In this document: piece by piece, positions 1-43,943 of the stretch | Layout of the letters: every line of letters begins with the position of its first letter | Position numbering within the stretch: position 1 is the stretch's first letter | IMG/VR virus record: IMGVR_UViG_3300044699_000050 | Location: 1-43,943 of that record | DNA length: 43,943 nucleotides | Direction: 5' to 3' (one strand) | Source: a virus | Notes under the pieces: generated by a model | The model's database searches: none | Told to the model about the DNA's origin: nothing | Seen by the model: the letters and a program-made list of their open reading frames with translations, nothing else | Position numbers and translations under genes: made by a program

Positions 1-646
1 GCCATGCCGACCGTAGACTGGCCCGGCATCAATCCATACGAACTCATGAAGGATATTGCGAAGTGGACGACTGCCGAGGACATCATCGTATCCGATACTG
101 GATGTGCGTTGGGATGGGTGATGCAGGGCTTTCCTTTCAAAGGGGAGCGTTTCCTACATGCTTTCAATATGACGCCTATGGGGTACGGCTTGCCAGCGGC
201 CATTGGCGCCCACTTTGCGACTGGGCGGCGCGTGGTGCTCATTACTGGAGACGGCTCGATCATGATGAGCCTGCCGGAGCTGGCAACTATTTCCCGCTGG
301 AACCTGCCGATCAAGATCATCCTGCTCAACAACGGCGGGCACGCCATGTGCCGCCAAACACAACGTCAATGGCTCGGCGCGAATATCCGGCTACCTCAGT
401 TGAAGGCGGGCTGGGGTTTCCGAAAGATTGGCGCACGCTATTCGCATCGTTCGGAATTGCGCCTTTGTTCACGATGGAAGGTGTTTTTAACTGGCCGTCG
501 GCTCCGCGCTAATCGTTGACATCGACCCCGACGCGCAACTCGTACCGCAGGCCAAGTATGGACAGCCGCTAGAGGATGCCGATCCGCCGCTGCCGTGGGC
601 AGAGTTAAAAGAACAAATGTTAATCGAACCTCTGGAGCGTAAATGA
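1..646 (+). CDS. TPP-dependent acetolactate-synthase-like enzyme, C-terminal part (left-end copy)
   Basis: This is the C-terminal third of the enzyme whose full gene is at 42054-43693. It carries the TPP-binding domain: the GDGS stretch, encoded at about 250-261, is followed by an NN motif about 25 residues later, the usual metal/diphosphate site. It is cut on the left by the contig end. Two missing bases, near 384 and 496, break the frame that the right-end copy keeps open. In turn this copy has the correct GGGG at 180-183 that the other copy lacks. The TGA at 644-646 overlaps the ATG of the next gene (ATGA), as is typical of this operon. Confidence 0.85.
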
Positions 647-896
647 GCCGTGCACGTGCGCAGGAAATCTTAACCGACAGCTTTGGCCGCTGGGGCCGTC
701 TGATCTTTCCCTATCACCAGATGGGCCGCATCGACTCGCTTGATCTGTTCGGGCCGACCGAACTCATGATCATGGCGATGTACCAGCACAATAAGCTCAA
801 GTGGCGCAAAGTGCTCGATATCGGCGCTAACCTCGGCCTGCACTCGATCCTGATGGCCAAGCTCGGCATGCAGGTGCGCGCCTTTGAGCCCGATTC
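1..896. repeat. Left copy of the terminal overlap (circular genome)
   Basis: This block is repeated at 43047-43943 with about 19 substitutions and three single-base indels. It covers the end of the TPP-enzyme gene and the start of the FkbM gene. The overlap shows that the contig closes into a circle or comes from a circularly permuted molecule. The copies are not identical, so this is not a simple exact terminal repeat. It more likely joins reads from two closely related genomes. Confidence 0.93.
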
Positions 897-1380
897 CCAG
901 CACTTCGGGCGGCTGATTACCAATCTGCGCGCCAACAACGTTTGGAATATGGTCAATGCGCAGATGGCGGCGGTGCATACGTCCGACGGACAGCACGAGT
1001 TTGTGCGTGTGCTCGACAATCTGACCGGAAATCATCTGGCGGGCTACAAAGACAGCTACGGGCCGCGCGAGACCGTCATGGTGCCGACTGTGGATTGCAG
1101 AGGTCTTTGGGATTGGGCCGACTTCGCCAAGATCGACAGTGAAGGTAACGAGGCCGATCTATGCGAGACCATGTCGGCGAAGGACATGCGCCACATGCAA
1201 GCCGTGTGCGAGGTGCGCGATGCCAAGAACGCCGAGCGGATCTATCGGCACTTTGACATGCTGCGCGTGCCGATGTGGAGCCAGAAAAACGACTGGAAAC
1301 AAGTAACGGCATTGACGCACATGCCGACCAAGAACAGGGAGGGGTCCTTGTTCATTGGTCACGAGGGCCCTTGGGTTTGA
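643..1380 (+). CDS. FkbM-family SAM-dependent methyltransferase
   Basis: A 245-residue protein with a Rossmann SAM-binding site, DIGANLGLHS at about residues 59-68, an acidic FEPDS loop about 22 residues later, and the FkbM-type KIDSEGNE motif near residue 165. FkbM enzymes O-methylate sugars or small metabolites. Inside this nucleotide-sugar operon it most likely methylates the sugar made by its neighbours; that substrate is inferred. The start is set by an ATGA overlap with the TPP-enzyme gene, and the stop overlaps the TTG start of the next frame. The right contig end carries the first 254 bases of the same gene with four silent changes, which indicates purifying selection. Confidence 0.88.
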   Translation: MSRARAQEILTDSFGRWGRLIFPYHQMGRIDSLDLFGPTELMIMAMYQHNKLKWRKVLDIGANLGLHSILMAKLGMQVRAFEPDSQHFGRLITNLRANNVWNMVNAQMAAVHTSDGQHEFVRVLDNLTGNHLAGYKDSYGPRETVMVPTVDCRGLWDWADFAKIDSEGNEADLCETMSAKDMRHMQAVCEVRDAKNAERIYRHFDMLRVPMWSQKNDWKQVTALTHMPTKNREGSLFIGHEGPWV

Positions 1381-1634
1381 ATAACTTCGATGGCAAAGAA
1401 TTTACGCACAAATGCGATGAGATTGCCGACGCGATCATGACCGGCGGAAACTATAAAAAGATTGCCGAACTGCAACTGCAAATGAATTACATGCTGGTCG
1501 GCTACATCTCGGTACTGCAGATGCAACTGAATATGTTGACAAGGGAACGGAATGAGCGATGCCGAAGAGCATTGGATGATTCACAGCATGGAGGATGTGA
1601 TCCAGCACTGGATCCAAGGATATTCTCAAAATGA
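1377..1634 (+). CDS. Small unknown protein in the sugar operon
   Basis: Open from a TTG that overlaps the previous stop (TTGA). The first 55-60 residues look like a helical protein rich in Leu, Gln and Met; the tail after about 1550 is Arg/Asp-rich and probably out of frame. The next gene starts at 1552 with an ATGA whose TGA lies in another frame, so the true end is probably near 1555 and one base may be missing. I do not recognise the family. Its place between the methyltransferase and the adenylyltransferase suggests an accessory role. Confidence 0.5.
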   Translation: MNNFDGKEFTHKCDEIADAIMTGGNYKKIAELQLQMNYMLVGYISVLQMQLNMLTRERNERCRRALDDSQHGGCDPALDPRIFSK

Positions 1635-1728
1635 TAAGAAACTATTCAGCTATGAATGGTTTTATGACTCGTCTAGCAAGAAAGTTGCTATCCGTATAGT
1701 TTTCGTAGGGAAACAGAAATCTAAATGA
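1552..1728 (+). CDS. 58-residue unknown protein
   Basis: A short frame starting MSDAEEHW and ending in a basic tail KQKSK, rich in Trp, Tyr and His. The start overlaps the likely stop of the previous gene and its TGA (1726-1728) overlaps the ATG of the adenylyltransferase at 1725. That double ATGA coupling is the main evidence that it is a gene. Its function is unknown. Confidence 0.55.
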   Translation: MSDAEEHWMIHSMEDVIQHWIQGYSQNDKKLFSYEWFYDSSSKKVAIRIVFVGKQKSK

Positions 1729-2156
1729 GCCGTGTGATCGCGCATGGCTGTTTCGATTGCCTGCATATTGGGCATGTCGAACATTTGCGCGCAGCCAGAA
1801 AGCTAGGGTCTTCTCTGTCCATTGCCTTGACCGATGATGCTGGGGTGGGTAAGGGCCAGGGGCGCCCGGTATTTTCCTGGCGCGAGCGCTCCGACATGCT
1901 AAGCGCGCTGCGCTTCGTGGATCAGACGTTCCAGGTGCGCGATCTAGAGCATTGCTTGAGCTTTCTCACGCCAGACGATATCTACGTCAAGGGGATGGAT
2001 TGGTTTGGCAAGTTGCCCGAACAATATCGGATCGAGCATGAGATCGGCGCGCGCGTCGTGTTTCTCGATACTTTGCCGGTTTATTCTTCTACGAAAATAC
2101 TGACCGGAGCGTTGCTCAGTGAACGAATTAGAACTGCTCGAGACGGCCAAGAATAA
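1725..2156 (+). CDS. hldC: Heptose-1-phosphate adenylyltransferase (HldE C-terminal domain type)
   Basis: A 143-residue stand-alone cytidylyltransferase-fold protein. The nucleotide-binding signature HGCFDCLHIGH occupies residues 7-17, matching the GxFDxLHxGH pattern of RfaE/HldE domain II. A YSSTKI segment near the C-terminus matches the SSTxI motif of the same fold. The family joins D-glycero-D-manno-heptose 1-phosphate to ATP, giving ADP-heptose in the cytosol. It is followed by a kinase with a 38-base overlap and then by an isomerase, the standard partners in heptose activation. Specificity for heptose rather than another sugar or glycerol phosphate rests on these neighbours. Confidence 0.85.
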   Translation: MSRVIAHGCFDCLHIGHVEHLRAARKLGSSLSIALTDDAGVGKGQGRPVFSWRERSDMLSALRFVDQTFQVRDLEHCLSFLTPDDIYVKGMDWFGKLPEQYRIEHEIGARVVFLDTLPVYSSTKILTGALLSERIRTARDGQE

Positions 2157-3057
2157 GCGCGTTCTGTTCTGTGGCGAGCGGATCATTGACGTGTATCACT
2201 ACGTCAAGCCGCTGGGCCGGCCGACCAAGGATGCCATCGTCTCGGTCGAGCGAGAGCATGCAGAAGCTTTCGAGGGCGGCGTAGCAGCGGCCTGCGCCCA
2301 CGTGCGCGATATGTGCAACGTCGAGATGTGGCAAGGCGGTAGCACCACGCGCAAAGAGCGCTTCGTCGAGTCCTCGCATGTACGCAAGCTCTTTGAGTTC
2401 TACGCGCCCGGCGGGCTCAACATCGCGCCCATGCCTCGGATGGAAGACTACGACGCGGTCGTGGTGCTCGACTACGGTCATGGCATGGCAACGCCTGAGT
2501 TCATCAAGTCGCTCGAGGCGGCCCGATATCTGGCCGTCAACGTGCAGACCAATAGCGGCAACTACGGCTATAACCTTGCAACCAAGTATCCGCGCGCAGA
2601 CTACCTGTGCGTGGATGAATCGGAGGCGCGCCTTGCGACACAGAACCGTACCGGGCCGATTGAGGACTCGCTATTCAAGCTCGCTGAAAAGGCTAAAAAA
2701 ACCGTCATCACCCTTGGGAAAGCCGGGGCCGTTGGATATTGCGGAACTGATCGGCGAACTGTACGCACCTCGGCTTATACCAATCAAGTCGTCGACACTA
2801 TGGGAGCAGGTGACGCCTTCTTTGCCGTTACCGCCATTGTCGCCGAAAGGGCTTCAATCGCTAGCCTTCTTAGGCTAGGCAACGCCGCCGCAGCGCTGAA
2901 AACCAAGATCATCGGACACCAGAGGAGCATCAACAAACGTGAGCTCATCCAATTTCTCGCTGGAATACCGGACAAGGTTCGTGGAAGCGCTGTCGACAGT
3001 GCAGATCACGGGGGAGCTCGACTTGCTGTCTGCTCCTCGTTTTCTGCTGTTCGGTAA
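2119..3057 (+). CDS. hldA: PfkB-family sugar kinase (HldE N-terminal domain type)
   Basis: Starts at a GTG inside the adenylyltransferase gene. Features of the RfaE1/HldE kinase are visible: an early FCGERIIDVY strand, a VVVLDYGHG segment near residue 115, and the catalytic DTMGAGDAFF motif near residue 225 that defines PfkB kinases. The family phosphorylates heptose 7-phosphate to heptose 1,7-bisphosphate. The last 35-40 residues overlap the next gene by 119 bases and look unrelated to kinases. A GTGA at 2939-2942 would give a normal coupled stop, so one base is probably missing just before it and the true end is near 2942. It lies in the same coupled operon as hldC and gmhA. Confidence 0.85.
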   Translation: MNELELLETAKNKRVLFCGERIIDVYHYVKPLGRPTKDAIVSVEREHAEAFEGGVAAACAHVRDMCNVEMWQGGSTTRKERFVESSHVRKLFEFYAPGGLNIAPMPRMEDYDAVVVLDYGHGMATPEFIKSLEAARYLAVNVQTNSGNYGYNLATKYPRADYLCVDESEARLATQNRTGPIEDSLFKLAEKAKKTVITLGKAGAVGYCGTDRRTVRTSAYTNQVVDTMGAGDAFFAVTAIVAERASIASLLRLGNAAAALKTKIIGHQRSINKRELIQFLAGIPDKVRGSAVDSADHGGARLAVCSSFSAVR

Positions 3058-3448
3058 CGGCGGCTCGGCTGCGATCGCCTCGCACATCGCAAACGACATA
3101 CTCAAGATGTGGGAGCGGCCGGCATTCACAATGGATGCGCCGACGCTAAGCTGCCTCTCCAATGACTTCGGGTGGGAGCGCGTATTTGAGGTCTGGCTTG
3201 AGCGCTCTCAGCGTACTGAAGACTGCGTGATTGCGATCTCCAGCTCTGGCGCGTCCAAGAACGTCGTGCGGGGATGCTTGCATGCGCGGGAGCACGGGCC
3301 TTTGGTGACGCTGACCGGCTTCGATGCAGACAATCCGGTGCGCGAAACCGGACACCTCAACTTCTACGTGCCGAGCAAGAATTACGGCATTGTGGAAACC
3401 GTGCACCTAGCGATTTTGCATGCCTTGTTCAATCCCGGTATAGGTTGA
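2939..3448 (+). CDS. gmhA: Phosphoheptose isomerase (SIS domain)
   Basis: A 169-residue SIS-domain protein, a little shorter than typical GmhA. It shows FGNGGSA near residues 36-42, the NDFGWERVF segment near residue 75, and the ISSSGASKNV phosphosugar loop near residue 100. GmhA converts sedoheptulose 7-phosphate to D-glycero-D-manno-heptose 7-phosphate, the first heptose step. The DnaA-binding SIS protein DiaA is a relative, but the adjoining heptose kinase and adenylyltransferase favour GmhA. It is the last gene of the operon; the promoter of a separate RNA unit starts at its stop codon. Confidence 0.86.
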   Translation: MSSSNFSLEYRTRFVEALSTVQITGELDLLSAPRFLLFGNGGSAAIASHIANDILKMWERPAFTMDAPTLSCLSNDFGWERVFEVWLERSQRTEDCVIAISSSGASKNVVRGCLHAREHGPLVTLTGFDADNPVRETGHLNFYVPSKNYGIVETVHLAILHALFNPGIG

Positions 3449-11928: not shown

Positions 11929-12078
11929 TTATGCTATAGTTCTATGCAGACGCGGGATCCCCCGTAGCCGGCATGTATCAGCGCAAGGCGGGAACAACTC
12001 TGAGCGGGACGACTGGAGACAGGATCGTCGGGAGCCCAAGAGGATGCTGACTGAAGCGGCTACGGCTTGCGTCTTCAT
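11929..12078 (-). CDS. Small ORF between stabilisation protein and fibre
   Basis: A 49-residue frame whose ATG overlaps the gp10-like stop (TAATG) and whose TAA ends just before the fibre start. The N-terminus MKTQAVAASVSILLG looks like a signal or lipoprotein start. The rest is Arg/Cys-rich and may be out of frame after an indel near 12035. It may be a small envelope protein or simply the fibre leader. Confidence 0.4.
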   Translation of the reverse strand: MKTQAVAASVSILLGSRRSCLQSSRSELFPPCADTCRLRGIPRLHRTIA

Positions 12079-13511
12079 TAGAATGGGGCGTTGGTCATCT
12101 CTGCACTTGCGCCCGTAATCACGCGCTTGACCGGATCGGTGATGCGAAGCTTGAGCACCCAATCTCGAGCCGCGCCGAGATTGCGCCAGATGAGCCGGTG
12201 CGTGAACTCGCCCAGCTTGCCCATGCTGGCGTAGCCCACCGAAGTAAAGGTGTTGCCGCCGTCCTTACTGACCAGTAGGTCACATACCGGGTTGACGCCT
12301 TGTCCGCTGACCGTGCCGACGCCCGACTCGATATCGATTTGCAGCTGCGAGATCCCGATATATTTGTCGTCATTCCAGATGTGCTTGGATATGACTTCCA
12401 TCGGCAGGGGATCGGTGCCGTCTAGATATAGCCCTTCAGTCAGCGCGTAGAGGTTACCAGTGGTGCGATCCGAGACGATCTGCTGACCGACGAAGTTGGC
12501 GAACTTGGTGCCTAGGAAGTTAGTCCCGTTCGATGCCTGCCACTCGGACCACACGCCCGAGAGCCCGTCATAGCACCACGCCTGCGCGTCGCCTATGAAG
12601 TTGATGAGGTACATCGGATGCCCTGCCACGCTGAAGCCAAAGCCCTTAGCATCGACCACAGACATATACCGGCTGATGATGCCGTCAATGTCCACGTCGC
12701 TGATCTTCTTCAGCGAGAAGCCTTGCATGCGGGCGATGGTGAGGTTCCCCGTGCGATCCTGAAACAGCGCCACCAGCGAGTTATCGAACTGCGAGATCGA
12801 CCACGGCGCGGCCAGGCCGAACTGCTGCGCGGCTCCCGGAATCTTGGAAAATGGGAAATCTGGCGAGCCCGTGTCCTGCCAAAACTCGGTGTAGACATCG
12901 CCGAACAGGTTCAATACCAAGTGGTCGACAATGCCCCCGCGCAGGTTGCCAGAGCCGCTTCCCGCGAAGCCGATCTGGATAGCCGGCCATACGGTCGGAT
13001 CGATCGATGGCGAGATCTGCGAGAGCTGAAATTGCCGCCCGTTGCTCGCGGTGACGATAAAGTAGCCGTCCAGCCATGTGACGGTGCGCGGCGCGGTCGT
13101 GAAGTTGCCGTCCGTGATCTGCGTCAACGTCGTGGTGACCATGTTGTAGACGTAGCCAAAGAAGCCGTCCACGATCACCAGATAGGTACCATCGTCGGCC
13201 ATCGAGATATCGCCGAGCGTGGTCGAGAGCGTCCCGAGCGTGGTCACATTGCCGCTGTTATCGGCAGAGTACAGCGTGCTCGCCTGCACGAAGAAGAGCA
13301 GCGGCGTCGTGAGCGTATTGACGGCCCACATGCCGCGCGTTGGGCTACTGCCGGTCGAGGTAACGAAATCCTGCAGGCCTGGACGGCCGATCAGAGAGAA
13401 CGCGGTGCGATCGTCCTCCTGGCGGCGCTCGACGTAGCAATTGATGCGCCGCTGTGCGGTGATAGCTGGTGACGCCGATTTTGTGCCGACGCCAAAGAGC
13501 TGCACCCTCAA
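12078..13511 (-). CDS. P22 gp10-like tail accessory (DNA stabilisation) protein
   Basis: A 477-residue protein that begins with MRVQLFG, then a RINCYVERR segment and a GRPGLQDF strand around residue 50. This is the start pattern of the P22 gp10 family. The body is WD-like beta structure with many Gly-Asp turns. In P22, gp10 follows gp4 on the portal, closes the head and holds the DNA before the needle and spikes attach. The neighbouring gp4-like gene supports this. The 3' end overlaps the next small ORF. Confidence 0.85.
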   Translation of the reverse strand: MRVQLFGVGTKSASPAITAQRRINCYVERRQEDDRTAFSLIGRPGLQDFVTSTGSSPTRGMWAVNTLTTPLLFFVQASTLYSADNSGNVTTLGTLSTTLGDISMADDGTYLVIVDGFFGYVYNMVTTTLTQITDGNFTTAPRTVTWLDGYFIVTASNGRQFQLSQISPSIDPTVWPAIQIGFAGSGSGNLRGGIVDHLVLNLFGDVYTEFWQDTGSPDFPFSKIPGAAQQFGLAAPWSISQFDNSLVALFQDRTGNLTIARMQGFSLKKISDVDIDGIISRYMSVVDAKGFGFSVAGHPMYLINFIGDAQAWCYDGLSGVWSEWQASNGTNFLGTKFANFVGQQIVSDRTTGNLYALTEGLYLDGTDPLPMEVISKHIWNDDKYIGISQLQIDIESGVGTVSGQGVNPVCDLLVSKDGGNTFTSVGYASMGKLGEFTHRLIWRNLGAARDWVLKLRITDPVKRVITGASAEMTNAPF

Positions 13512-14668: not shown

Positions 14669-16828
14669 TTACCCTTGCCATCCTTTGATGCCGTAATGCC
14701 CAATGCTGGCGTTTGGGTAAATCCACGCCTCGATTCCGAGCTCTTTCATGCGCCGCCCAAACACGCGATCTTCACCCCAGCGCAGCATTGGGCCTTCACC
14801 GCCCATCTGCGCACGCTCGCAGGTAAAGAATTCGGTATATACGCGATGCGGATTGGACGGGTCTGCGCCCTGATCCATATAGACGAGATCGGCAAACTTC
14901 TCTTTGTACTTCTCCAGCGCAGTGCGCGCCACGCGGATATAGCCGCCGGCGAGATAGTTTGCCTTGAGCACGGGCTCACCGTTGCTCATGATCACGCCTT
15001 CAGGGAAATGCTGGCCGTCGCGTTCCTGCAACTTGGGCTGTGCGGTCCAGATGTTCCAGCCGTTCTTTTGCGGATAGCTGCCCATGATGATCTCGAATGG
15101 CATCTGCAGCATGTTCACAAAGCTCTGCGAATCCCATTGCATGTCGCTATCGATCATGAACAGATCCGTAGCCGCCGGGTCTTCGAGAAACTTGTTCATG
15201 ATCGTGTTCTTGGCGCGATCGACGTAGGAATCGCCCGAGAGCTCCCAGAATTCATGCTCGATTCCAAGGCGCGTGAGCACCTGGACCGTAGCAGCCAGGC
15301 TCGCGATGTAGGGCGAGAAGCCGCGCATTTCATAGAAGGGCGTTGCAATGATCACCTTCTTACGCGGCGGGAAGTAGCGCGACTTGATGCGGTGATAGTT
15401 CACCCGCAAGTCTTGCCCCCATTGCCAGCGCACGGCAGGATCGTCGCTATGCAGCTGACTCTGCTGGCCAGCGTGCGAGCGCGTATGCGTCAGGTTCTCT
15501 TCGATGATCTTGATGTTCTCGCGCTGCAGGAGCTTAAGATAAACGTCGTAGTCGCACAGGCAACCTACGCTGTCGTCCCAGCCGCCCACATCGCGCAGTG
15601 CTTGCGCGCGGTACATGCCGGCGCCGAAGTAGTGGTTTCCGTACTGGAGCACTTGCAGCCATTGATCACGCGGCCGGTTCGTTGCGGCCGGGATCTTCCA
15701 AAAGAGATGATCTTTGCTCAGCTCAGCGCCATCCGCGTCAATGAAATCGGTGCGCGAGGCCACCATCTCGAGGAACGGATCGTCGTGAAACTCTTTCAGG
15801 CAGCGCGCCACAAAGGTCGGGTCGAGCAAGTCGTCAGCGCTGAAGGGCAGATAGAACTCGGTCTCGCACATGGCCAGCATGCGATTGTTGGCCGCGGCAA
15901 CGCCGATGTTCTCTTCGATCTTCTCGAATACCGTTCCAGGCGGCAGGATCTCGGCCAGCACATCGGCCGTGCCGTCGCTGCTCGCGTCGTCAATTACATG
16001 GAGCGCGCAAGGGACCGTTTGCGCCAAAACGCTATCAATCGACGCCTTGACATACTTCTCCATGTCGCGCACCGGAATGCCGATAGTGACGCATGCCTTG
16101 ACGGGAGTCGGCGGGAGAACGATCTTGTGCTTGGCATGGACCTTCTTGATGTCGGCAGCAAACAACTCCTCGCTATTGGGCTTCGGCGCGGTCAAGCGAT
16201 CGTCTGGCTGGGCGGCGTCCGCGAAGCGATAGGGCAGTATCCAGCCCTGATACTTCTGGAAAAAGCGCACAAACCACTCGAGATCGGAGCAGTGGAAAAA
16301 CTGCGGATCGAAGCCACCAATGGCCTTGTAGCATTCGCGCCGCATCAGCAGCGATGCGCCACCGATGGGGATGTTCTCCAGGCGCAACAGCGTGCGGATC
16401 CAGCCCTCTCGCGAGCGGTTGTGCGCGCGATAATGATACTGCTCATAGCCCGGCCGCTCACCCATCGGGCCAGACCAGGGCAAGCCCCAGGTGCAGCCGA
16501 TCCCCGGGTGCTCGTCCATCCAGGCCGCCTGCACCTCGAACTTGCGCTCCCAGATCCATTCGTCGGCCGATAGAACCGAGATGTAATCGCCGCTGGCGAG
16601 GCTCAGGGCGTGGTTGAGGCCGTGCGGGATGCCTCGGTTCTCAGGGAATCGGACATAGACCAGGCGTGAGTCGCCATAAGACTCGATCAGGCCTTTGATG
16701 TCCTCGGTCGATCCATCGTCTACGATGATCGCCTCCCAGTCCGGAATGGTCTGCGCGCGCACAGAATCGATCATCTTGCGCAGATACTCGGATTGGTTAA
16801 GAACCGACGTGCACACCGACACTTTCAT
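14669..16828 (-). CDS. Three-domain glycosyltransferase (tandem GT2-type)
   Basis: A 719-residue protein with three GT-A-like units in one chain. Unit 1 (1-235) has VDDGS at 36-40 and the acidic motif SADE at 87-90. Unit 2 (243-450) has IDDASSDG at 279-286 and SADD at 330-333. Unit 3 (about 490-719) starts KVIIATPFYE and has IDSDMQWD at 559-566. Such enzymes move sugars from nucleotide-sugar donors in the cytosol. It lies in the structural operon, between the small lysis-type membrane proteins and gp4. It could glycosylate virion proteins, or modify host glycans late in infection. The sugar operon on the other strand is a natural donor source; that link is inferred. Confidence 0.85.
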   Translation of the reverse strand: MKVSVCTSVLNQSEYLRKMIDSVRAQTIPDWEAIIVDDGSTEDIKGLIESYGDSRLVYVRFPENRGIPHGLNHALSLASGDYISVLSADEWIWERKFEVQAAWMDEHPGIGCTWGLPWSGPMGERPGYEQYHYRAHNRSREGWIRTLLRLENIPIGGASLLMRRECYKAIGGFDPQFFHCSDLEWFVRFFQKYQGWILPYRFADAAQPDDRLTAPKPNSEELFAADIKKVHAKHKIVLPPTPVKACVTIGIPVRDMEKYVKASIDSVLAQTVPCALHVIDDASSDGTADVLAEILPPGTVFEKIEENIGVAAANNRMLAMCETEFYLPFSADDLLDPTFVARCLKEFHDDPFLEMVASRTDFIDADGAELSKDHLFWKIPAATNRPRDQWLQVLQYGNHYFGAGMYRAQALRDVGGWDDSVGCLCDYDVYLKLLQRENIKIIEENLTHTRSHAGQQSQLHSDDPAVRWQWGQDLRVNYHRIKSRYFPPRKKVIIATPFYEMRGFSPYIASLAATVQVLTRLGIEHEFWELSGDSYVDRAKNTIMNKFLEDPAATDLFMIDSDMQWDSQSFVNMLQMPFEIIMGSYPQKNGWNIWTAQPKLQERDGQHFPEGVIMSNGEPVLKANYLAGGYIRVARTALEKYKEKFADLVYMDQGADPSNPHRVYTEFFTCERAQMGGEGPMLRWGEDRVFGRRMKELGIEAWIYPNASIGHYGIKGWQG

Positions 16829-18485: not shown

Positions 18486-19694
18486 TTAACCCCCCAGCCG
18501 CACAGCCAACTCGTCGTAATAGACGGTCGTGCCATACAGCATGTCGAGACGTGTCGGGAATACGTCGTTGTTGATGTCGTAGGCCCGGATCACACGCATC
18601 GAAATGTTGCGATAGGTTTCGCGCGCCGAGAAGTCCACACCCTGCGGAATCTCCATCGGCACCATCACCAGCCCGAACGCATCGCGCGTAAACGCGAGGT
18701 TGTTGATGCTGGCCGTGGTGGCCGCTGCACCCACACCGCTCGTCCCCGTCAGCCACGTCACAGCAGAGCCGGTAGAGGCCGGGCCGGAGACGTTCTGATA
18801 CGGTCCGCTGGTCACAATCGATGGCGAGAACGATACCGTCCAGGTGCTCGCCGTCGGGGTCGTGCTGGCCGTGACCACGAAGTTTTTGAGCTGGCCAGTC
18901 GATACACGCGACTGCGGGTTGACGTTGAACACGCCCGCCACGGTGAAGACTTCACCGATCGAGAGGTTCTCAGCCGGCGTCCCACCGAACATCGCCGTCG
19001 ATGCACCGTTGCCCTGCGCGGTCGTGATGACCATGCCAAGCGAGGTGTTGTGATTGCCGGCGTTGCCACGGACCACGTTCTGATCCATGTACATCTCGAA
19101 GTTGCCGATCGTGGCCAGATAGCCTTTGACCAACGCATCCCGAGCAGTCGGCATCACAAACGACGGCGTCAGGTTGTTGGCAATCGCCCAATAGCCGGCC
19201 GGGTTCAGCACCAGGTTACGGTTATCCTGCGGCGCCGCGTTGTCATCCATGCGCTGACCGACCAGCTGCACGGAGCTCGAGAAGGCTGCAGGGGTGACGT
19301 TCGGCGTGCCGACGTAGTTGGAGATCGAGAGCGTCTGTGCAAGCACGTCCGCGTCGATCTGGTTGGCCAGCGTGGCCATTGCCGGCTTCAAATAGCGCTC
19401 GGAGAACTCTTCCACCGTCAACGTCAGATCGGTCGAGGTGAACTGGAAGTCCACGCCCTTCTGCTGGTTGATGGTGATGGTGACCGAGGGCTCGGCGATG
19501 TTTTGGACCGCGAGGCCTGCGCCCGAGCGTACCGTGAACCGATTCGGCTTGCGGATCGTCAGCGAACTGCCGATCTTCACAAACTGATTCTCGAATTTAC
19601 GGTTGACTCGATTCGCCGCCACGAGGTTGTTCTCCAGGATCACCAGCGATTCCTTGGTGATGATCGAGGGAGTAAGCAATACCTGTGAGGACAT
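18486..19694 (-). CDS. Major capsid (coat) protein, P22 gp5-like
   Basis: A 402-residue protein. It starts with a helical N-arm, then LTIRKPNRFTVRSG, VTITINQQKGVDFQFTS and a long helix before residue 120, followed by the NLVLNPAGYWAI strand. The insertion region around residues 230-270 (VFTVAGVFNVNPQSR) resembles the I-domain position of the P22 coat. The C-terminus has the RVIRAYDINND belt strand. The preceding scaffold gene and P22-like portal support the call. It forms the icosahedral shell. Confidence 0.87.
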   Translation of the reverse strand: MSSQVLLTPSIITKESLVILENNLVAANRVNRKFENQFVKIGSSLTIRKPNRFTVRSGAGLAVQNIAEPSVTITINQQKGVDFQFTSTDLTLTVEEFSERYLKPAMATLANQIDADVLAQTLSISNYVGTPNVTPAAFSSSVQLVGQRMDDNAAPQDNRNLVLNPAGYWAIANNLTPSFVMPTARDALVKGYLATIGNFEMYMDQNVVRGNAGNHNTSLGMVITTAQGNGASTAMFGGTPAENLSIGEVFTVAGVFNVNPQSRVSTGQLKNFVVTASTTPTASTWTVSFSPSIVTSGPYQNVSGPASTGSAVTWLTGTSGVGAAATTASINNLAFTRDAFGLVMVPMEIPQGVDFSARETYRNISMRVIRAYDINNDVFPTRLDMLYGTTVYYDELAVRLGG

Positions 19695-22897: not shown

Positions 22898-22956
22898 TTC
22901 TTAGGCCCTATCACGCCGCCGCCGGTCGTTACCGGAACTTTCGTCTGTCCACTCAT
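22894..22956 (-). CDS. 20-residue peptide after the portal gene
   Basis: The frame MSGQTKVPVTTGGGVIGPKK overlaps the portal stop and the next start (ATGA at both ends). The overlaps suggest that it is translated, but it is very short. It may only serve to couple translation. Confidence 0.35.
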   Translation of the reverse strand: MSGQTKVPVTTGGGVIGPKK

Positions 22957-25459
22957 TGCAGCACCCTCTCCTTCTTTCCAACCTTCGGGCGCCCCGTCTT
23001 CGGGTCGCGATGGATATTGATACGCACGCCGCCGCGCTTGATCGACTTGATGCGGCCCGTCTTCTCGTCCTGCTCGAACTCGATATCGGCCTCATTGTCG
23101 GCCTCGGCCTGCTTGAGTCTTTGCTGCAGTTCTTTGATCGTCGAATGCGCCTCATCGACCTTCTTGCGATCGCTCTCGCGGCGCATGCCGGTTGCTGCAA
23201 GCTCGCGGTCCTTGTCAGCGCCCTCTTTCGCATCCTTCTGGGCGGAAACTTCTAGATGGTGCTTGGCCTCGGCCTCGGCCAGCTTGACCAGCATCTCGTT
23301 GGTGTGCTGCTTGTTGCGCGCCTCGATCTCTTCGAGCTTGGCTTTGTGGTCCAGCGCGTTCTTGGTGATCTGCGCGGTAAAGTCGGCCTGGATCTCGCGC
23401 AGCTTCATGTCCATCTCTGCGCCCGGATCGCCGCCCTTGGCTTCGATCTCCTGCATCTTGGCCACAAAGGTGGCCTGCACATCGGCGATCTTGGCCTCGT
23501 ATTGCGCGTTGATCTTCTGCACTTCCACGCCTAGCGCCTGACGCTGGATATCGCGGTCCTTCTCGGCATCACCCAGCATGGCCACAGCCTGATCGCGCTC
23601 TTGCGTGGCCTTCTGCGTCTGCTGCATCAGGTTCATGATCATGCCGCGCGCTTCGGCCGGCAGCTGGTCGAGCTTCTTGTCCAGCATGTTGGGCGGCAGG
23701 AGCGATTGCAGCCTAGCGCTGATCTCATCGGAGCCTGGCCAATCCATGTTCTTAGCGATCAGATCGCCGATGTAGGGCGCCGCGGTCGGAACGGCAGTCA
23801 TGAATGCCATCATCGAATCGGCTGCCTCAGCACGCTTGGTCGAGTAGTTCGGGCCAATCGTGACAGTCACGCCATACTTGCCATTCTTCGGATTGAACAG
23901 GCGGGCTACACGCCCGTCCTGCATGTTCTCCTGGCCGCCGGGCGCCGCGGTCGGATCGAGCATCACCTGCTCTTCGGAATCATCCTCGCGCAATATCGTC
24001 AGCATGCGCTTGCTGTCGTAGAGCTTGGGGATCAGATCAATAAGGATCTCGCCTGTGTAACGAAGCGATCGAGCCAGGTTGTCGACGTAGTGGAAGTTCC
24101 CCAAGTCACCCACTCGCTTGAGTTCGCGAAGGGCCTTGCCGGATTCGTCGTACATGCGTTCTTGCTCAGTAGCATCGAAGCGAATCCAGTGACCGCCTGT
24201 ATGTCCTGAGCCGCAGCAATCTTCGCCTGAACGATGCCCGCCGGCGGACCATCAAACTGCTGACGCTGAGGCGGCGGCGCCGGATGCCCCGCCACCGAGG
24301 TCTCTTTGTAGAGTAGGAACGGATAGCTCTTGATGTTGGCCGACTTCCATTCGCGTTCATGGCCTTCGATCTGCCCTTCGGCCATGATGAACGGAGCCTT
24401 CGGTGCCAGTGCAATCAACTCCGTTTCACTCGTGACCCAATAGTTATACATGCGCTGCGGGTCTTTGGCGGCACGAATCAATCCGGCATACGTCGTCTCG
24501 CCTTCGATGTTAACTTCGTCCCCGATGACGCGGACGACTGGGATGTGCGCGCCAAGCCACTCGCTTTCTTCGAGGATTTGCTTACTGGTGAGCTTGTACC
24601 ACTTGATTCGCTTTTCATAGACTGTACGCTCTTCAACTCTTGGAGCATCAGCCAATAGTGGGTCCAGCTCATCTTCATAGCCCACGTGGCCATTTTCAAG
24701 GCGTACCAGCTTGCGCTCAGTACTCTCATAGCAAAAGTACTCCGCAATGCGAATATGAGTCTCGGTGCTCCAGAGTTCATCGTTCTCTCCCATCCCCTGT
24801 TCTTCCCACGGTTGCGGGTCGGCGTCGGGGAAGTCTTCTTCAAATTGCTCACGCGGGATCAGATCACTGATGAACACCCACTTTGCATCGCACCCATCGG
24901 GCTCAGTGCTGTCTGGGTCCATATAAATGCGGAACGGATTCGGAACACGCTTGATACGAATGCACTGATCGAAGCTACCGTCGTATTCGTACTCGGTCAG
25001 GATGCGCCAGTAGCCCCAACCGATCGAGACCGCCGAGTCAAATCCCGTGTCGTAGGCAATGTCTGCCTTCGATTGCCGCTCAAGCGCCTTGATCAAGCCT
25101 TTATAGTCCTTCGCCGTCTGCGGGTCGCTGCGATCACCGATTGGAGATACGCCGATGCTGGGCCGGTTCTGCCGCTGGTCGTTCGTGATCTGATGCACGA
25201 ACGTTTGCATCTTGTTGATCGTGAGGCAAGGCCGCTTCTCGATCGTGCGCGATGCTTTGATGTCCTCGGGCCACTGCTCTCCGTTCTTGAAGCGCAGATC
25301 CTCTAAGGCCATTTGCCGGTTTTTGCTTTCTTTGGTTTCGGCGCGCGCGAATTGCTTAACGACTTTTCGGAGGAACGACGCAGTCGAATCCTTCTTAGCC
25401 GAGCCTGTCGCGGATTCATCTGCAGGCCCTCTTGAGGTTTTGGCTTCGTATCCTGCCAT
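22953..25459 (-). CDS. Portal protein, P22 gp1-like, one frame shift
   Basis: Two frames (24032-25459 and 22953-24155) join near 24160 into about 835 residues. The first 470 residues have the P22-portal landmarks: RPCLTINKMQ followed by QITNDQRQNRPSI, GWGYWRI, the YMDPDSTEPDG strand, and VTGFASMLLSKN near the join. The second part completes the wing and crown, then carries a long charged coiled coil (about residues 590-790) and a basic tail. P22 gp1 is about 725 residues, so this one has an extended C-terminal barrel-like coil. The portal is the DNA gate of the head and the terminase docking site. Confidence 0.88.
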
Positions 25460-37442: not shown

Positions 37443-37605
37443 CCGACGCAGACCGCCGATAGCGCAGAAGCATGATCTGCTCAATATTACCGCCATTGAG
37501 ATGAATGCAAACCCCCAATGGAACGACCAAGTCCTCGCCGCCATCGCAGAGGCTCGCGCAGAAGGCATCGCAGAAGGCATCGCAGAGGAGATGAAGAAAT
37601 CCTAA
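37439..37605 (+). CDS. Small helical protein with AEGIAEGIAE repeat, frame-shifted
   Basis: The likely ATG at 37439 and the frame from 37501 (MNANPQWNDQVLAAIAEARA) join after a shift near 37460. A short tandem GCAGAAGGCATC repeat gives AEGIAEGIAE. It directly precedes the radical SAM gene, and its end is uncertain because of a likely missing A at 37596-37599. Confidence 0.45.
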
Positions 37606-39603
37606 TCTATCTCGCCGATCTGACGCACACCGGCATGATCGTTGCCAGCAACGTCTTCCCGCTGGGAATCGGCTTGATCGGCGCCAACATCATGAAGGAG
37701 ATCCCACAGGCTCGAGTCGAGCTATTCAAGTATCCGCTGATCTTGACGCAGCCCTATCGCGTGAGACGCCGGATCTTGTGGGCTTCAGCAACTATAGCTG
37801 GAGCTGCAACATTGGCATGGCCTACGCACAGAGAATCAAATCGCGCTGGCCTACAACAATAATAATCGCAGGAGGCCAAATTATGGCGCGACCGATGAAG
37901 AACACGCTGATTTTTGGACTCGATTTCCGTTCGTTGACTTCTACATCGTCAAAGAGGGGAATTGGTTACGGTGCAGCTGCTTACTGAGCTCGCTCGCAAC
38001 CAATGGCAATGTGATGGTGTGCGAGTGCCCAGCTGCCATCGCGCAGAGCTCGGCGAAATCATCAAACCCGACCTTGCCCCACGAGTCAAATCCCTCGATG
38101 ATCTCCCGAGTCCATATCAATACGGACTGATGGACAAGTTTTTCGATGACGTTTTGATACCACTAGTACATACCACACGGGGATGCCCATTTAAATGTTC
38201 GTTTTGCACAGAAGGGACTAAATATTATGACGTCGTGCTAAGAGGACTACGCTCGCTGATGACCTCGAATATATCGGGCAACGCCGAGGCAAACTTGCAG
38301 ACCCTTTACATCTCCGATGCCAATTTCGGAATGTTCAAAGAGGACCGAGACAAGGCGCTTGCCATCGCCGAGAGTCAGCGCAAATACGATTGGCCCCGAT
38401 ATATTCACGTGTCCGGCGGAAGAATCACAAAGAGCGACTTTTGGAAGTTGCTAGCATCATCGGCGGGAGCATGGGAGTTGCGGCAAGTCTCCAGTCAACA
38501 AACAAGGCTGTTCTCGATAACGTACGGCGATCAAATATCTCTTTGGAACAGCTCACCGGCGTGGCTCGAGAAGGTTCAAAAATCGACGCCAACACCTACG
38601 CCGAGATCATCCTCAACCTCCCGGGCGACACCCTCGAAGCGCACACGCAAAGTCTCCGAGACGCGGTAAATTCGGGGCTGAGTTATATCCGCATGTACCA
38701 GCTGATCATGCTGCCTGAAACGGACATGAACACCGCACAGACGCGTGAGCAATTTGGCATGAAAACCATGTGGCGCATCATGCCGCGCTGTTTCGGGCGC
38801 TATCCCTTCCAAGGAGAGGAGTTCAATAGTGCCGAAATCGAAGAAATCTGCATCGCCCAAGACTCGCTTAGCTTTGGGACTACGTCGAGGCGCGCGAGCT
38901 CGACCTCACGATCGAAATCTTCCATAACGCCAATGTTTTCCGTGAGCTATTTGGGCTCTGTAATGTTGCCGGGGTCGAATGGTTTGATCTCCTGCGAAGT
39001 GTTCACGAACGACGTCGGACACATCTCGCTTCGCTATACGCCACATTTAGAGAAGACACTGTCAAGCCGCTATGGGGATCACGTGATGAAGCCCTCGCGT
39101 TCGCGCAAACGAACTTAGACGCCTACCTGACCGAGCAACTGGGCACCAATGAGCTGTTCAACGGCAAGGCCGTGGCGTTTTCAAGCTGCAGGAGGAATTG
39201 CATGATTGCATCTATCGAGAGGCAGCAGAGCTCATACCGGATTACCGTGAGTATCTTGAGGAAGCTCGGGATTTTTCGCTGCGACGTAAGCAAGCCCTCT
39301 TGGAAGACACCGAATCCGATAGCGGAAACTATAGTTATGATTTCCCTGCGCTTGTGGGGTGGACTTTATTGCGGATCCCGATAAGCATCGTCGCGACGTC
39401 GCCATCGTTTCAGTCACACCGCCGAGCAACGTAATACCATTGCGCAACTTGTCCATCAGTACGGAACATCGAACACCGGCCTAGGGCGCATTCTCCTGCG
39501 CGCACATATTAAACGTTTTTTCCGTAACATCGAGTACGATGGCATAATCAGCGATCGCGGTTTCGAGCAGTCTTACCGCCGCTCGACTAACTTGGGGGAT
39601 TGA
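37591..39603 (+). CDS. B12-binding-domain radical SAM enzyme, many frame shifts
   Basis: Reading from an ATG at 37591 (one A missing in its AAA run) gives about 670 residues. The N-terminal part ILIYLADLTHTG, FPLGIGLIGANIMKE and VGFSNYSWSCNIG has the cobalamin-binding fold pattern. The radical SAM motif CPFKCSFC lies near 38185, in the segment HTTRGCPFKCSFCTEG, and binds the 4Fe-4S cluster. Later segments include ILNLPGDTLEAHTQSLRDAV and YIRMYQLIMLPETDM, as in this superfamily. The TGA at 39601 overlaps the TTG start of the epimerase. Such enzymes often methylate or rearrange unreactive carbons, for example on sugars. At least six indels break it. Confidence 0.8.
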
Positions 39604-40516
39604 CATTGCGCATTCTTGTGACAGGTTCCTGCGGCTACGTCGGGTCTTCGCTGGTACCGAAATTGCGTGCAGCTGGACATGTAGTGCACGGTATTGACGT
39701 TAAATGGTTTTACGATGACGGGAGAGCGCCTATGCAGATGTCCGCAGTGTTGCGTTGGATGATGTTCGATTCGACTGTGTCATACACCTGGCAGCGATTT
39801 CTAATGATCCTACTAGTTCTGAGTATCCTCGCCGCAGCTGGGAAACCGGAACTTTGGCCACTTATCGCATTGCCGATGCCGCTGCCCGAGCTGGAGCGCG
39901 GTTTATCTACGCAAGCTCTGTCTCTGTATATGGCGCCGACCGTGGAATGGTTACCGAGGACATGGACCTGCGCCCGCTCTCCGACTACAACAAGCACAAG
40001 ATGGTGGCCGAGCGTGTGCTCCTGTCCTACGCGGATTCAATGCCAGTGCAGATCATCCGGCCTGCAACGATTTGCGGCCTATCGCCGCGCATGCGCCTGG
40101 ATCTCACGGTCAACATGCTCACCGTGCAGGCGCTCAGAGACGGCGTAATGACGATCTACGGCGGCCAGCAATGGCGCCCCTCGATCCACATCGATGACAT
40201 GACAGATCTGTACTTGTTCATGGTCGAGCATCCGGAATTGACCGGCATCTGGAATGCGGGCTTTGAGAATCACTCCCTTATACAGATCGCTGACATATTG
40301 GCCGCGCGACTGGCGCGCAGATCAAAGTCACCGAGGAGCGCGATCGCCGCTCGTATCAAGTCGACTCCAGCAAGCTGCTCAAGACCGGCTTCACTCCGGT
40401 GCGACATATCAGAGTCGCCATTTACGATCTGATCGACGCATGGAAGGCCGGCACGCTGAAAGACGAGCCGCGCTGGAATAATTTTAAATGGATGCGAGAG
40501 CTAGGGTCCGCGATGA
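39600..40516 (+). CDS. NAD-dependent sugar epimerase/dehydratase 1, frame-shifted
   Basis: TTG start coupled to the radical SAM stop. MTLRILVTGSCGYVGSSL has the NAD-binding GxxGxxG. After a shift near 39735 come CVIHLAAISNDPTSSEY, the YASSVSVYG strand, the catalytic YNKHK (YxxxK), and a PSIHIDD segment near 40190. About 305 residues, extended-SDR type. It probably oxidises, epimerises or dehydrates a nucleotide sugar. HldD-like ADP-heptose epimerase is one option, not shown. Confidence 0.8.
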
Positions 40517-41392
40517 GTAACATTCTAGTCGTGGGCGCCCGCAGCTTCAGCGGCCAGCACTTCTGCAAGTACTTGGAAAGATCGGCCATCAAGTCTGGCG
40601 CTCATCGCTGCGACAGCCGAGCATCCCGCTCGCGATGCAGTTCGACTACGCGATCAACTTCGCAGCGCTCAATGTCGTGGCGCCGTCGTGGGAGTATCCG
40701 CCGACTACGTGCGCGTCAACGTGATCGAGACCACTCGGCTATTCGACTTCCTGCGCCAGCAGAAGCACCTCGTTAAGTTCGTACAGGTGAGCACACCAGA
40801 GGTCTATGGCTCGATCCAGGGATTGATCAATGAAAACGTCTGCCATGAGCCCTCAACTCCATACGCCGTCTCTAGGGCCGCAGCGGAGCGAATGGCCCTA
40901 GCCTATCACCGTCGCTACGCTCTGCCCGTAGCGTTCACGCGTGCGTGCAATATCTACGGCCAGGACAGCAACTCTATCGACTCATTCCAAAGCTCATCGT
41001 CAGTATCCGCAAGGCGAGAAGTTCAAGCTCGAGGGCGTGGCGCCTCCTATCGTGCTTCCTGCACGTGCGCGACATGTGCGAGCCTACTACCGGGTCATGA
41101 TGCTGGGCGAAGCACCGCTTGCCTACAACGTCAGCGCGCAGTATCTCTGGAAGATTTGGGAGCTGTCGCCTTCATCTGCAAGCGCATGTTCACCTCGATT
41201 GAGGCGGCTTGCGAGATCGCGCCGGAGCGGCCCGCAAAGACGATCGCTACCACTTGAACATCGACCGCATCCGCGCGCTCGGCTGGTCCGATACGACGCG
41301 ATTAGAGGACGGCATCGCCGAGATGATCAAATGGGTTGACGACACTTCGAGACCCTGCGCCTGCAGCGACCGAATACGAGATCGAGCTATGA
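40513..41392 (+). CDS. NAD-dependent sugar epimerase/dehydratase 2, frame-shifted
   Basis: MSNILVVGARSFSGQHFCKY at the start (NAD loop), later VSTPEVYGSIQG, the active-site YAVSR with RAAAERMAL, and the FTRACNIYGQD strand. The catalytic Lys position appears as Arg (YAVSR), which is odd for an active extended SDR and may be a mis-read base. About 290 residues after four or more indels. Nearest type: NDP-sugar 4-epimerase or 4,6-dehydratase. ATGA-coupled at both ends. Confidence 0.75.
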
Positions 41393-42067
41393 GCAAAACC
41401 TGCATCATCCTCGGCAGCAACAGCGATATTGCAAAGGGATTGATTCCGCTGCTCGGCGCGATGGGTGGAGAGTGCACGGGCAATCGCGCGGGGCGCCTTA
41501 TATCCAATGGGATCTGATCATCAGCTGCATCGGCACGGTGGGCCAGTTGGGCTCTGGCATGAGTTGGATGTGGATCGCATCCGAGAGGGGATCGAGACTA
41601 ATCTGCTCACGCCAATCACTCTGGTGCGCCTGCTGATGAGCTTTCGCAATCCCGGCGCCTCGGTCTGCTTCCTCGCCGGTAGCAATCCGAACATGATCAT
41701 GCCCGGTTACTTCGCCTACAACGTATCGAAGATGGCGCTGCTTAAAGCCGTCGAGCAAATGGACTATGAGACGCCTGATGCTAAGTTTTTTGCGCTGGGC
41801 CCTGGAACGATACTTACGAAGATTCATCAGGCGACACTTGAGGCGCGCTGGCAGAACCCGAAGCTTGAGGCCGCGCTAAACGATGACGCAGATCAACAAC
41901 CCAAGATCCAGCGCGTATATAACACCCTCAAGTGGTGCATCGCGCAGCCGAAGGAAGTGGTCGGCGGGCGCAACATCTGCGCAAGCGATGTGCAGCTAGA
42001 TGACATGGCGCGCCGGTTGAAAGAGGACAACGCACTATGGAAGCTGCGGCGCCATGAAACTCGCTGA
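41389..42067 (+). CDS. Short-chain dehydrogenase/reductase, one frame shift
   Basis: Starts MSKTCIILGSNSDIAKGLIP (nucleotide loop), shift near 41505, then ISCIGTVG, an NLLTPITLVRLL helix, FLAGSN and the active-site YNVSK (YxxxK). About 226 residues. It most likely reduces a keto group of the sugar intermediate. It overlaps the TPP-enzyme gene by 14 bases. Confidence 0.8.
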
Positions 42068-43693
42068 AGCGCTGGCCAAGTTTATCGAATCGCAGGGCGT
42101 GCGCCACGTCTTTGGCGTGTCCGGGGGCGCGAGTCTCCACCTGATACATGGAATCACCGATGCCACGCAAATCCGCTTCATCCCAACAACTCACGAATGT
42201 AACGCAGGATTTAGCGCTGACGCTTACGCGCGCATGTGCGGCCTTGGAGTTGCTCTGGCCACTTCTGGGCCAGGAGCAACGAACCTTATCACTGCAATTG
42301 CTACAAGCTACTATGACTCGGTGCCAGTCCTCTACCTCACCGGCAACGTCGCCACCCATCGCCAGAGCAAAGCGCTCGGTGTCAGGCAATACGGCTTCCA
42401 AGACCACGATATCGTCGCCAGCGTCCGAGACTGCTCCAAATACGCCACTCAATTAAAAGACGCCAATTGCCTGATCGCAACGCTTGAGACGGCGATTTTT
42501 CTAATGCGCGAAGGCCGACCCGGTCCGGCGCTACTGGACATTCCTGATGATATCCAGCGAGCTGATATCCGCTATCCAATCTAGCCGCCGGCCGATCTTC
42601 ATCTGGGGTGCAGGAATGCGCCCCTACGCTGAGGAAGCGCGTACACTGTCCAGATCGTTAGGTATACCTTACGCCTGCACTTGGGGCGCTATCGACCTGG
42701 GGAGAACGACGATGCATTGTTTGCCGGTGGTTTTGGAACTCACGGAGTACGCGCTGCTAACTTTGCGGTGCAGAATTCTGATCTGGTTATCTCGCTGGGC
42801 TCCCGGCTGGATACTAAGGCCACTGGTTTCCCAGCTCACTTTGCCAGAGCTGCGCGCATTGCGATGGTCGATGTTGATGCGGCTGAAATCGCAAAATTTT
42901 CCGCACTTGGAAGAGTAATCGACTTTCCGATCTGCGCTTATGTAGGACAATTCATCGCCGCATTAATGCCTGGAGATGGCGTTACTTTGCTACGTGGTGA
43001 TCGCGCGGAGTGGCAGCTGCGCATCAAGTGGTGGAAAGAGCGCTACGCCATGCCGACCGTAGACTGGCCCGGCATCAATCCATACGAACTCATGAAGGAT
43101 ATTGCGAAGTGGACGACTGCCGAGGACATCATCGTATCCGATACTGGATGTGCGTTGGGATGGGTGATGCAGGGCTTCCCTTTCAAAGGGGAGCGTTTCC
43201 TACATGCTTTCAATATGACGCCTATGGGTACGGCTTGCCAGCGGCCATTGGCGCCCACTTTGCGACTGGGCGGCGCGTGGTGCTCATTACTGGAGACGGC
43301 TCGATCATGATGAGCCTGCCGGAGCTGGCAACTATTTCCCGCTGGAACCTGCCGATCAAGATCATCCTGCTCAACAACGGCGGGCACGCCATGTGCCGCC
43401 AAACACAACGTCAATGGCTCGGCGCGAAGTATCCGGCTACCTCAGTTGAGGGCGGGCTGGGGTTTCCGAAGGATTGGAGAACACTATTCGCATCTTTCGG
43501 AATTGCGCCTTTATTCACTATGGAAGGTGTTTTTAACTGGCCTGTCGGCTCCGCGCTAATCGTTGACATCGACCCCGACGCCCAGCTCATACCGCAGGCC
43601 AAGTATGGACAGCCGCTAGAGGATGCCGATCCGCCGCTGCCGTGGGCAGAGTTAAAAGAACAAATGATCATCGAACCACTGGAGCGTAAATGA
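42054..43693 (+). CDS. TPP-dependent acetolactate-synthase-like enzyme, frame-shifted
   Basis: About 546 residues after correcting breaks near 42580, 42700 and 43227. The first domain has FGVSGGASLHLIHG, the catalytic-type Glu in THECNAGFSADAYAR near residue 47, and ATSGPGATNLITAIA. The middle domain has RPIFIWGAGM and LGSRLDTKATGF. The last domain binds TPP through GDGSIMM and a later NN. The family includes acetolactate synthase and YerE, which adds a two-carbon unit to a keto-sugar in branched-sugar synthesis. Next to sugar epimerases and SDR enzymes, the branched-sugar role is the better guess. Silent differences between the two end copies show that the protein is under selection. Confidence 0.85.
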
Positions 43694-43943
43694 GCCGTGC
43701 ACGAGCGCAGGAAATCTTAACCGACAGCTTTGGTCGCTGGGGCCGTCTGATCTTTCCCTATCACCAGATGGGCCGCATCGACTCACTCGATCTGTTCGGG
43801 CCGACCGAACTCATGATCATGGCGATGTACCAGCACAATAAGCTCAAGTGGCGCAAAGTGCTCGATATCGGCGCTAACCTCGGCCTGCACTCGATCCTGA
43901 TGGCCAAGCTCGGCATGCAGGTGCGCGCCTTTGAGCCCGATTC
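43047..43943. repeat. Right copy of the terminal overlap
   Basis: Matches bases 1-896. It has GGG at 43226-43228 where the left copy has GGGG at 180-183, an extra G at 43429, and an extra T near 43543. Nearly all substitutions between the copies fall in third codon positions. The sequence ends inside the FkbM gene only because the contig ends. Confidence 0.93.
43690..43943 (+). CDS. FkbM methyltransferase, first 254 bases (right-end copy)
   Basis: Same gene as 643-1380, cut by the contig end. It differs from the left copy at four third-codon positions, all silent. The ATG overlaps the TPP-enzyme stop. Confidence 0.88.
   Translation, partial: MSRARAQEILTDSFGRWGRLIFPYHQMGRIDSLDLFGPTELMIMAMYQHNKLKWRKVLDIGANLGLHSILMAKLGMQVRAFEPD

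Follow-up and report, generated by a model that had tools for sequence, protein, structure and literature searches.

Phage-borne sugar cassettes are already known in kind from cyanophages, as about 44 further viral contigs proved to hold a related kinase and the trio of sugar-phosphate genes described below also occurs in cyanophage P-SSM2. In the latter phage (PSSM2_309-313), a nucleotidyltransferase, a PfkB kinase and a phosphoheptose isomerase, with a nucleotide-sugar epimerase nearby, follow one another in the same order (HldC, kinase, SIS) as in the DNA analysed here and in the related viral contigs L003 and L036 (PMC3037559). Three cyanophages have both the kinase group and the nucleotidyltransferase group of P-SSM2, and the authors left undecided whether such LPS-type genes are 'functional or stuffer DNA' (PMC3037559). 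The cyanophages carrying these clusters (P-SSM2, S-SM2, S-SSM7) are T4-like phages of cyanobacteria, not P22-like. In addition, genes for a TPP enzyme, a radical SAM protein and FkbM are all missing from the annotated P-SSM2 region, as is a three-domain glycosyltransferase following the capsid gene, and the P-SSM2 kinase and SIS proteins are shorter than their counterparts here.

The canonical ADP-heptose pathway (GmhA, HldA/HldE, GmhB, HldC, HldD) has four fold families in common with the locus, which differs from it by scores below the family cut-offs, an Asp in place of a catalytic Glu, the lack of GmhB and bacterial relatives in which the nucleotidyltransferase comes first. In bacterial nucleotidyltransferase-PfkB fusion clusters (Azospirillum, Rhodospirillales, Pelagibacteraceae and others), the kinase subfamily is shared with the phage, and its neighbours are SIS and epimerase genes and, in many cases, E1 alpha/beta genes; unlike the phage trio, these clusters are fused and chromosomal. 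Fusions of this kind with SIS, epimerase and E1 genes were seen in bacterial loci (L006-L034) across many phyla.

Keto sugars are branched by YerE-like (ALS superfamily) and alphaKADH2 enzymes (PMC12247030), and by YerE and the E1-type AviB1/AviB2 (PMC4753412). In yersiniose/erwiniose-type (YerE-like) and AviB1/AviB2-type branching, an ALS-like or E1-type TPP enzyme likewise has a dehydratase-like enzyme and a reductase as neighbours (PMC12247030, PMC4753412), but in the phage two separate genes encode the ALS-like enzyme, and the ketose-phosphate trio accompanies them. The searched phage records and papers contained no P22-like cassette that combines a split TPP enzyme, methylation genes and a capsid-linked three-domain glycosyltransferase, and literature searches on phage heptose or branched-sugar operons brought up nothing comparable. 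We lean towards reading the operon as the source of an activated, C-branched sugar of a heptose-like type, to be attached late in infection by a glycosyltransferase that the phage itself encodes.

Operon layout and genome context

The window, i.e. the whole stretch analysed, is virus record IMGVR_UViG_3300044699_000050 (43,943 bases). The operon claimed in the earlier note, from about 37591 across the contig junction to 3448, was borne out, with every named gene type placed by Pfam and NCBIfam; the pathway comprises roughly ten genes. The following features make up the operon and its virion context.

37591..39434, + strand: B12-binding radical SAM enzyme (KedN5-like C-methyltransferase family), CxxxCxxC present, frame-broken
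39600..40480, + strand: epimerase 1, GalE/HldD-like extended SDR (Pfam Epimerase, 3e-29), frame-broken
~40500..41340, + strand: dTDP-glucose 4,6-dehydratase-like extended SDR with altered STPEVYG / YAVSR motifs
~41380..42067, + strand: short-chain dehydrogenase/reductase (SDR), candidate ketoreductase (Pfam/NCBIfam), 59% identity to the L003 copy
42054..42584, + strand: PYR subunit of a split acetolactate-synthase/YerE-like TPP enzyme (TPP_enzyme_N, 1.6e-34)
42547..43693, + strand: central and PP subunit of the split TPP enzyme (TPP_enzyme_M, TPP_enzyme_C), GDG...NN motif, frame-broken here
1..643, + strand: second copy of the TPP enzyme PP part, in the contig-end overlap
643..1380, + strand: FkbM-family methyltransferase (fkbM_fam 61.5 bits, above cut-off), start repeated at 43690-43943
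1380..1728, + strand: two small ORFs, no conservation
1725..2156, + strand: HldC-like nucleotidyltransferase (CTP_transf_like; rfaE_dom_II 84.5 bits, cut-off 181.5)
2119..~2988, + strand: PfkB/HldA-like sugar kinase, GG and GAGD motifs retained
2939..3448, + strand: GmhA-like SIS isomerase in which Asp replaces the catalytic Glu of GmhA
12078..13511, - strand: head closure protein Hc3 (phrog_578, 2e-81), context
18486..19694, - strand: major capsid protein (phrog_283, 1e-73), context
22953..25459, - strand: P22-like portal protein (PF16510), two frames here, context

The P22-type portal (PF16510) and the head-closure protein (phrog_578) are markers of a P22-like podovirus. A nucleotide search of window positions 1-24000 against 50,697 phage records gave zero matches. 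The head region also encodes a protein with a weak laminin-G/concanavalin-like domain (21026-22138, - strand), and the P22-like relative L003 carries a GARS-like ATP-grasp protein (PF01071, PF02843; 13861-15303, - strand) amid its ejection and tail genes. Downstream of the cassette, an outer-membrane beta-barrel-like gene (PF13505; 3643-4206, + strand), possibly a surface protein altering the host, has no relatives among 152 loci.

The contig ends overlap, with positions 1-896 being 98% identical to the last ~897 bases. Substitutions between them are predominantly synonymous (15 of the 18 that were classified), which suggests that the two ends derive from strain variants of a single genome that closes into a circle or, more probably, is circularly permuted. 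Frame breaks fall at different positions in the two overlap copies, and the cassette genes are open frames in related phage contigs; most frame breaks in the window are therefore probably sequencing errors. The earlier note had regarded the breaks as indels, which probably holds for most of them but not for the split of the TPP enzyme, which is real in the relatives. A true loss of catalytic domains, which it had also considered, was not seen, as these frames are open in relatives.

Among the tailoring enzymes, the B12 radical SAM enzyme is a single frame of 669-759 aa in relatives, and the best NCBIfam match of epimerase 1 is heptose_epim, with a score under the cut-off. The L003 copy of the dehydratase-like protein scores 191 bits as RmlB-like, also under the cut-off. 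Its motifs read STPEVYG and YAVSR compared to the usual STDEVYG and YxxxK, so that Thr and Glu are retained while Pro replaces Asp and Arg replaces the usual Lys; because of these two replacements, its predicted activity is uncertain. Orthologues of the FkbM protein occur in L036, L046 and L049. The two small ORFs have no relative among the 152 loci.

The sugar-phosphate trio and the split TPP enzyme

The earlier note had named the three genes hldC, hldA and gmhA. Profile searches recovered the fold families it expected (CTP_transf_like, PfkB, SIS, TPP and radical SAM) but not the heptose equivalogs, with 72 bits against a cut-off of 209 for gmhA, 85 against 181 for rfaE domain II and 49 against 345 for rfaE domain I. 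The L003 copies of the trio likewise fall under the heptose equivalog cut-offs. The catalytic residues of GmhA are taken here to be a Glu (E65 in E. coli) and a His (H180). In the SIS alignment, all phage and bacterial members have Asp at the Glu position, whereas the Campylobacter and Burkholderia GmhA structures retain Glu and the deposited chain of Colwellia GmhA has Gln; the His motif is retained in the SIS protein of the window. The bacterial form of the kinase is a nucleotidyltransferase-first fusion with the kinase behind, the reverse of HldE. Judged by these scores, residues and fusion order, the naming as HldC, HldA and GmhA does not hold, and the trio is best classed outside these families, as a divergent nucleotidyltransferase/PfkB/SIS set.

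Its pathway may well be heptose-like in its working, because the SIS, nucleotidyltransferase and epimerase proteins have heptose enzymes as their best specific matches and a transaldolase is present in three cassette phages (L046 and records G011 and G014). In L046, the transaldolase (PF00923; 7963-8652) adjoins the SIS gene, which fits a supply of sedoheptulose 7-phosphate. On the other hand, the substrate may not be heptose phosphate, given the scores below cut-off and the Glu-to-Asp change in every SIS member. The trio would then act on another ketose phosphate and yield a different NDP-sugar of the pentose, hexose or octose type. The distinct nucleotidyltransferase-PfkB fusion of bacteria agrees with such a substrate, as does the structure prediction proposed in the earlier note. 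This gave a confident kinase fold (AlphaFold pLDDT 93.7) without discriminating the substrate, the Foldseek matches being sulfofructose kinase, ribokinase and HldA alike. Against it stand the heptose enzymes as best specific matches and the transaldolase next to the SIS gene, and a non-heptose substrate is considered a serious but less probable option.

As the earlier note had reported, no gmhB-like gene is present; the GmhB phosphatase model (TIGR01656) scored above its cut-off in none of 27 viral records, while each of the 14 control genomes gave a match. If the pathway follows the canonical route, the host could supply this step.

In L003, L036, L046 and L049, the TPP enzyme is encoded by a PYR gene of 171-176 aa and a central/PP gene of 371-401 aa, which overlap by 26-38 nt, and the window is arranged alike. 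Because two overlapping genes are found in every relative, the split is genuine, and the protein is predicted to be a true two-subunit enzyme and not the product of an indel. It has the ALS-type fold with the PYR-domain Glu and the GDG...NN motif; the label 'YerE-like' stands for this fold and these motifs. In the window, it is accompanied by the dehydratase-like gene with altered motifs and by the SDR, whereas records G046 and G039 lack the dehydratase-like gene. Acetolactate-synthase matches in the phage set were set aside, as several of these records carry bacterial-type genes.

Relatives, cassette classes and selection

A scan with the kinase profile returned 46 viral loci, some of them near-identical or redundant, and 30 bacterial or archaeal loci. 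The class I kinase of L003 gave no match at 1e-5 against the 50,697 phage records. Three cassette classes, with labels coined in this analysis, were distinguished. Class I consists of the window, L003, L036, L046 and L049, and contains the epimerase, the dehydratase-like gene, the SDR, the split TPP enzyme, the kinase and the SIS gene, with FkbM in most members and the B12 enzyme in three. Looking for the same gene order in other phages, as the earlier note had suggested, was fruitful: the order of the window recurs in L003 and L036, while L046 and L049 hold a rearranged but complete set. Class II (e.g. L002) is found on contigs of mostly 50-70 kb. It has a glycosyltransferase-like gene, a nucleotidyltransferase-kinase fusion, SIS, an E1 alpha/beta or ALS-like TPP gene, a SPASM radical SAM gene, a methyltransferase and a further glycosyltransferase-like gene. 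Class III (e.g. L038, L043, L045) combines a short SIS protein with E1 alpha/beta and a SPASM radical SAM gene. Class I cassettes have an ALS-like TPP enzyme and many of the others an E1 alpha/beta one, and the two types may functionally replace each other.

The cassette is under purifying selection in related phages. For related phage pairs with unsaturated synonymous sites, dN/dS is about 0.04-0.22 for most cassette genes, with a lowest value of 0.014; many pairs are saturated at synonymous sites, so the figures are rough, and nonsynonymous change is low throughout. This bears on whether the cassette is functionless filler or captured host DNA, the 'stuffer DNA' raised for the cyanophage LPS clusters (PMC3037559). 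The many frame breaks in the window could be read that way. However, the breaks of the two overlap copies do not coincide and the frames are open in relatives, the sets are rearranged yet complete, and dN/dS is low between phage pairs. Filler is therefore already disfavoured and very improbable. The phage sugar pathway is real and under selection, and probably functional.

The three-domain glycosyltransferase and the proposed pathway

A probable user of the sugar, overlooked in the earlier note, lies in the virion gene block.

14669..16828, - strand: 719-aa glycosyltransferase with two GT2 domains and a third GT-A-like domain, between the major capsid and head-closure genes

Its third domain is modelled as GT-A (pLDDT 83.6), with structural matches that include STIV A197 and the PBCV-1 capsid glycosyltransferase at low TM-scores. 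In all four P22-like genomes mapped (window, L003, L046 and L049), the gene comes directly after the major capsid gene and before the head closure gene, at 56-57% identity. Near full-length copies occur in about 34 viral contigs, and none of the phage records searched covers 80% of its length. In relatives of L046 and L049, a methyltransferase-like gene is located between the capsid and glycosyltransferase genes (L091, 4639-5343, and L092); it resembles the methyltransferase ending the L003 cassette.

A strict linkage between the trio and the glycosyltransferase was rejected, with a positive control run: 29 other glycosyltransferase contigs, mostly fragments, are without the kinase. The split TPP enzyme is present in all six glycosyltransferase records of at least 38 kb, window included. 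Two long records (G046 and G055) as well as G039 keep the SDR and split TPP genes and have no trio. Therefore, the branching module is the steadier partner of the glycosyltransferase and the trio an exchangeable front end; the pieces of the cassette are separable, as G046 and G055 illustrate.

According to the proposed pathway, of which we infer every substrate, the order of the steps, the acceptor and the benefit, the SIS isomerase would convert a ketose phosphate, most likely sedoheptulose 7-phosphate, to an aldose phosphate. The PfkB kinase would phosphorylate this product, a GmhB-type phosphatase of the host would take off one phosphate, and the HldC-like enzyme would activate the sugar, probably as an ADP-sugar. 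Next, the dehydratase-like enzyme would form a keto(-deoxy) sugar, to which the split YerE-like TPP enzyme might add a two-carbon branch with pyruvate as donor. The SDR would reduce the branched sugar and the epimerase would set its stereochemistry, with FkbM and the B12 radical SAM enzyme as presumed methylation steps. Finally, the three-domain glycosyltransferase would transfer the sugar, more likely onto a virion protein than onto host LPS. Of the modified heptose nucleotide put forward in the earlier note, a phage nucleotide-sugar operon with a probably heptose-like, branched product is retained, without the canonical enzyme identities. Its suggestion of interference with ADP-heptose-sensed signalling or defence found no support in this analysis. 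The HldC/HldA resemblance, taken alone, could point that way, but genes for methylation, branching and glycosyl transfer would then serve no purpose, making this role improbable in the extreme.

The acceptor might also be host LPS or capsule, with receptor masking or superinfection exclusion as the outcome. YerE-like enzymes serve bacterial LPS sugars (PMC12247030), the glycosyltransferase matches GtrB-like O-antigen conversion families, and the OMP-like gene lies directly downstream of the cassette. However, in every mapped relative the glycosyltransferase belongs to the late virion operon beside the capsid gene, which is late for exclusion, and an unsystematic look noticed no flippase or membrane-anchor gene beside it. 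Modification of the host surface is rated as plausible but less likely, the position of the gene among the late virion genes being in favour of glycosylation of the particle.

As a wider and rather tentative proposal, uncultured P22-like phages may be widespread carriers of a self-contained virion decoration system, in which a ketose-phosphate-derived, YerE-type branched and methylated sugar would be made with a split thiamine enzyme and placed on capsid or tail by a head-operon glycosyltransferase. The analysis also brings out a split YerE-like enzyme and a divergent nucleotidyltransferase/PfkB/SIS family. Since many unrelated viral contigs share the core trio, which is kept by purifying selection, and the head operon contains a glycosyltransferase to match, the function of phage LPS-type sugar genes becomes testable in a small phage.
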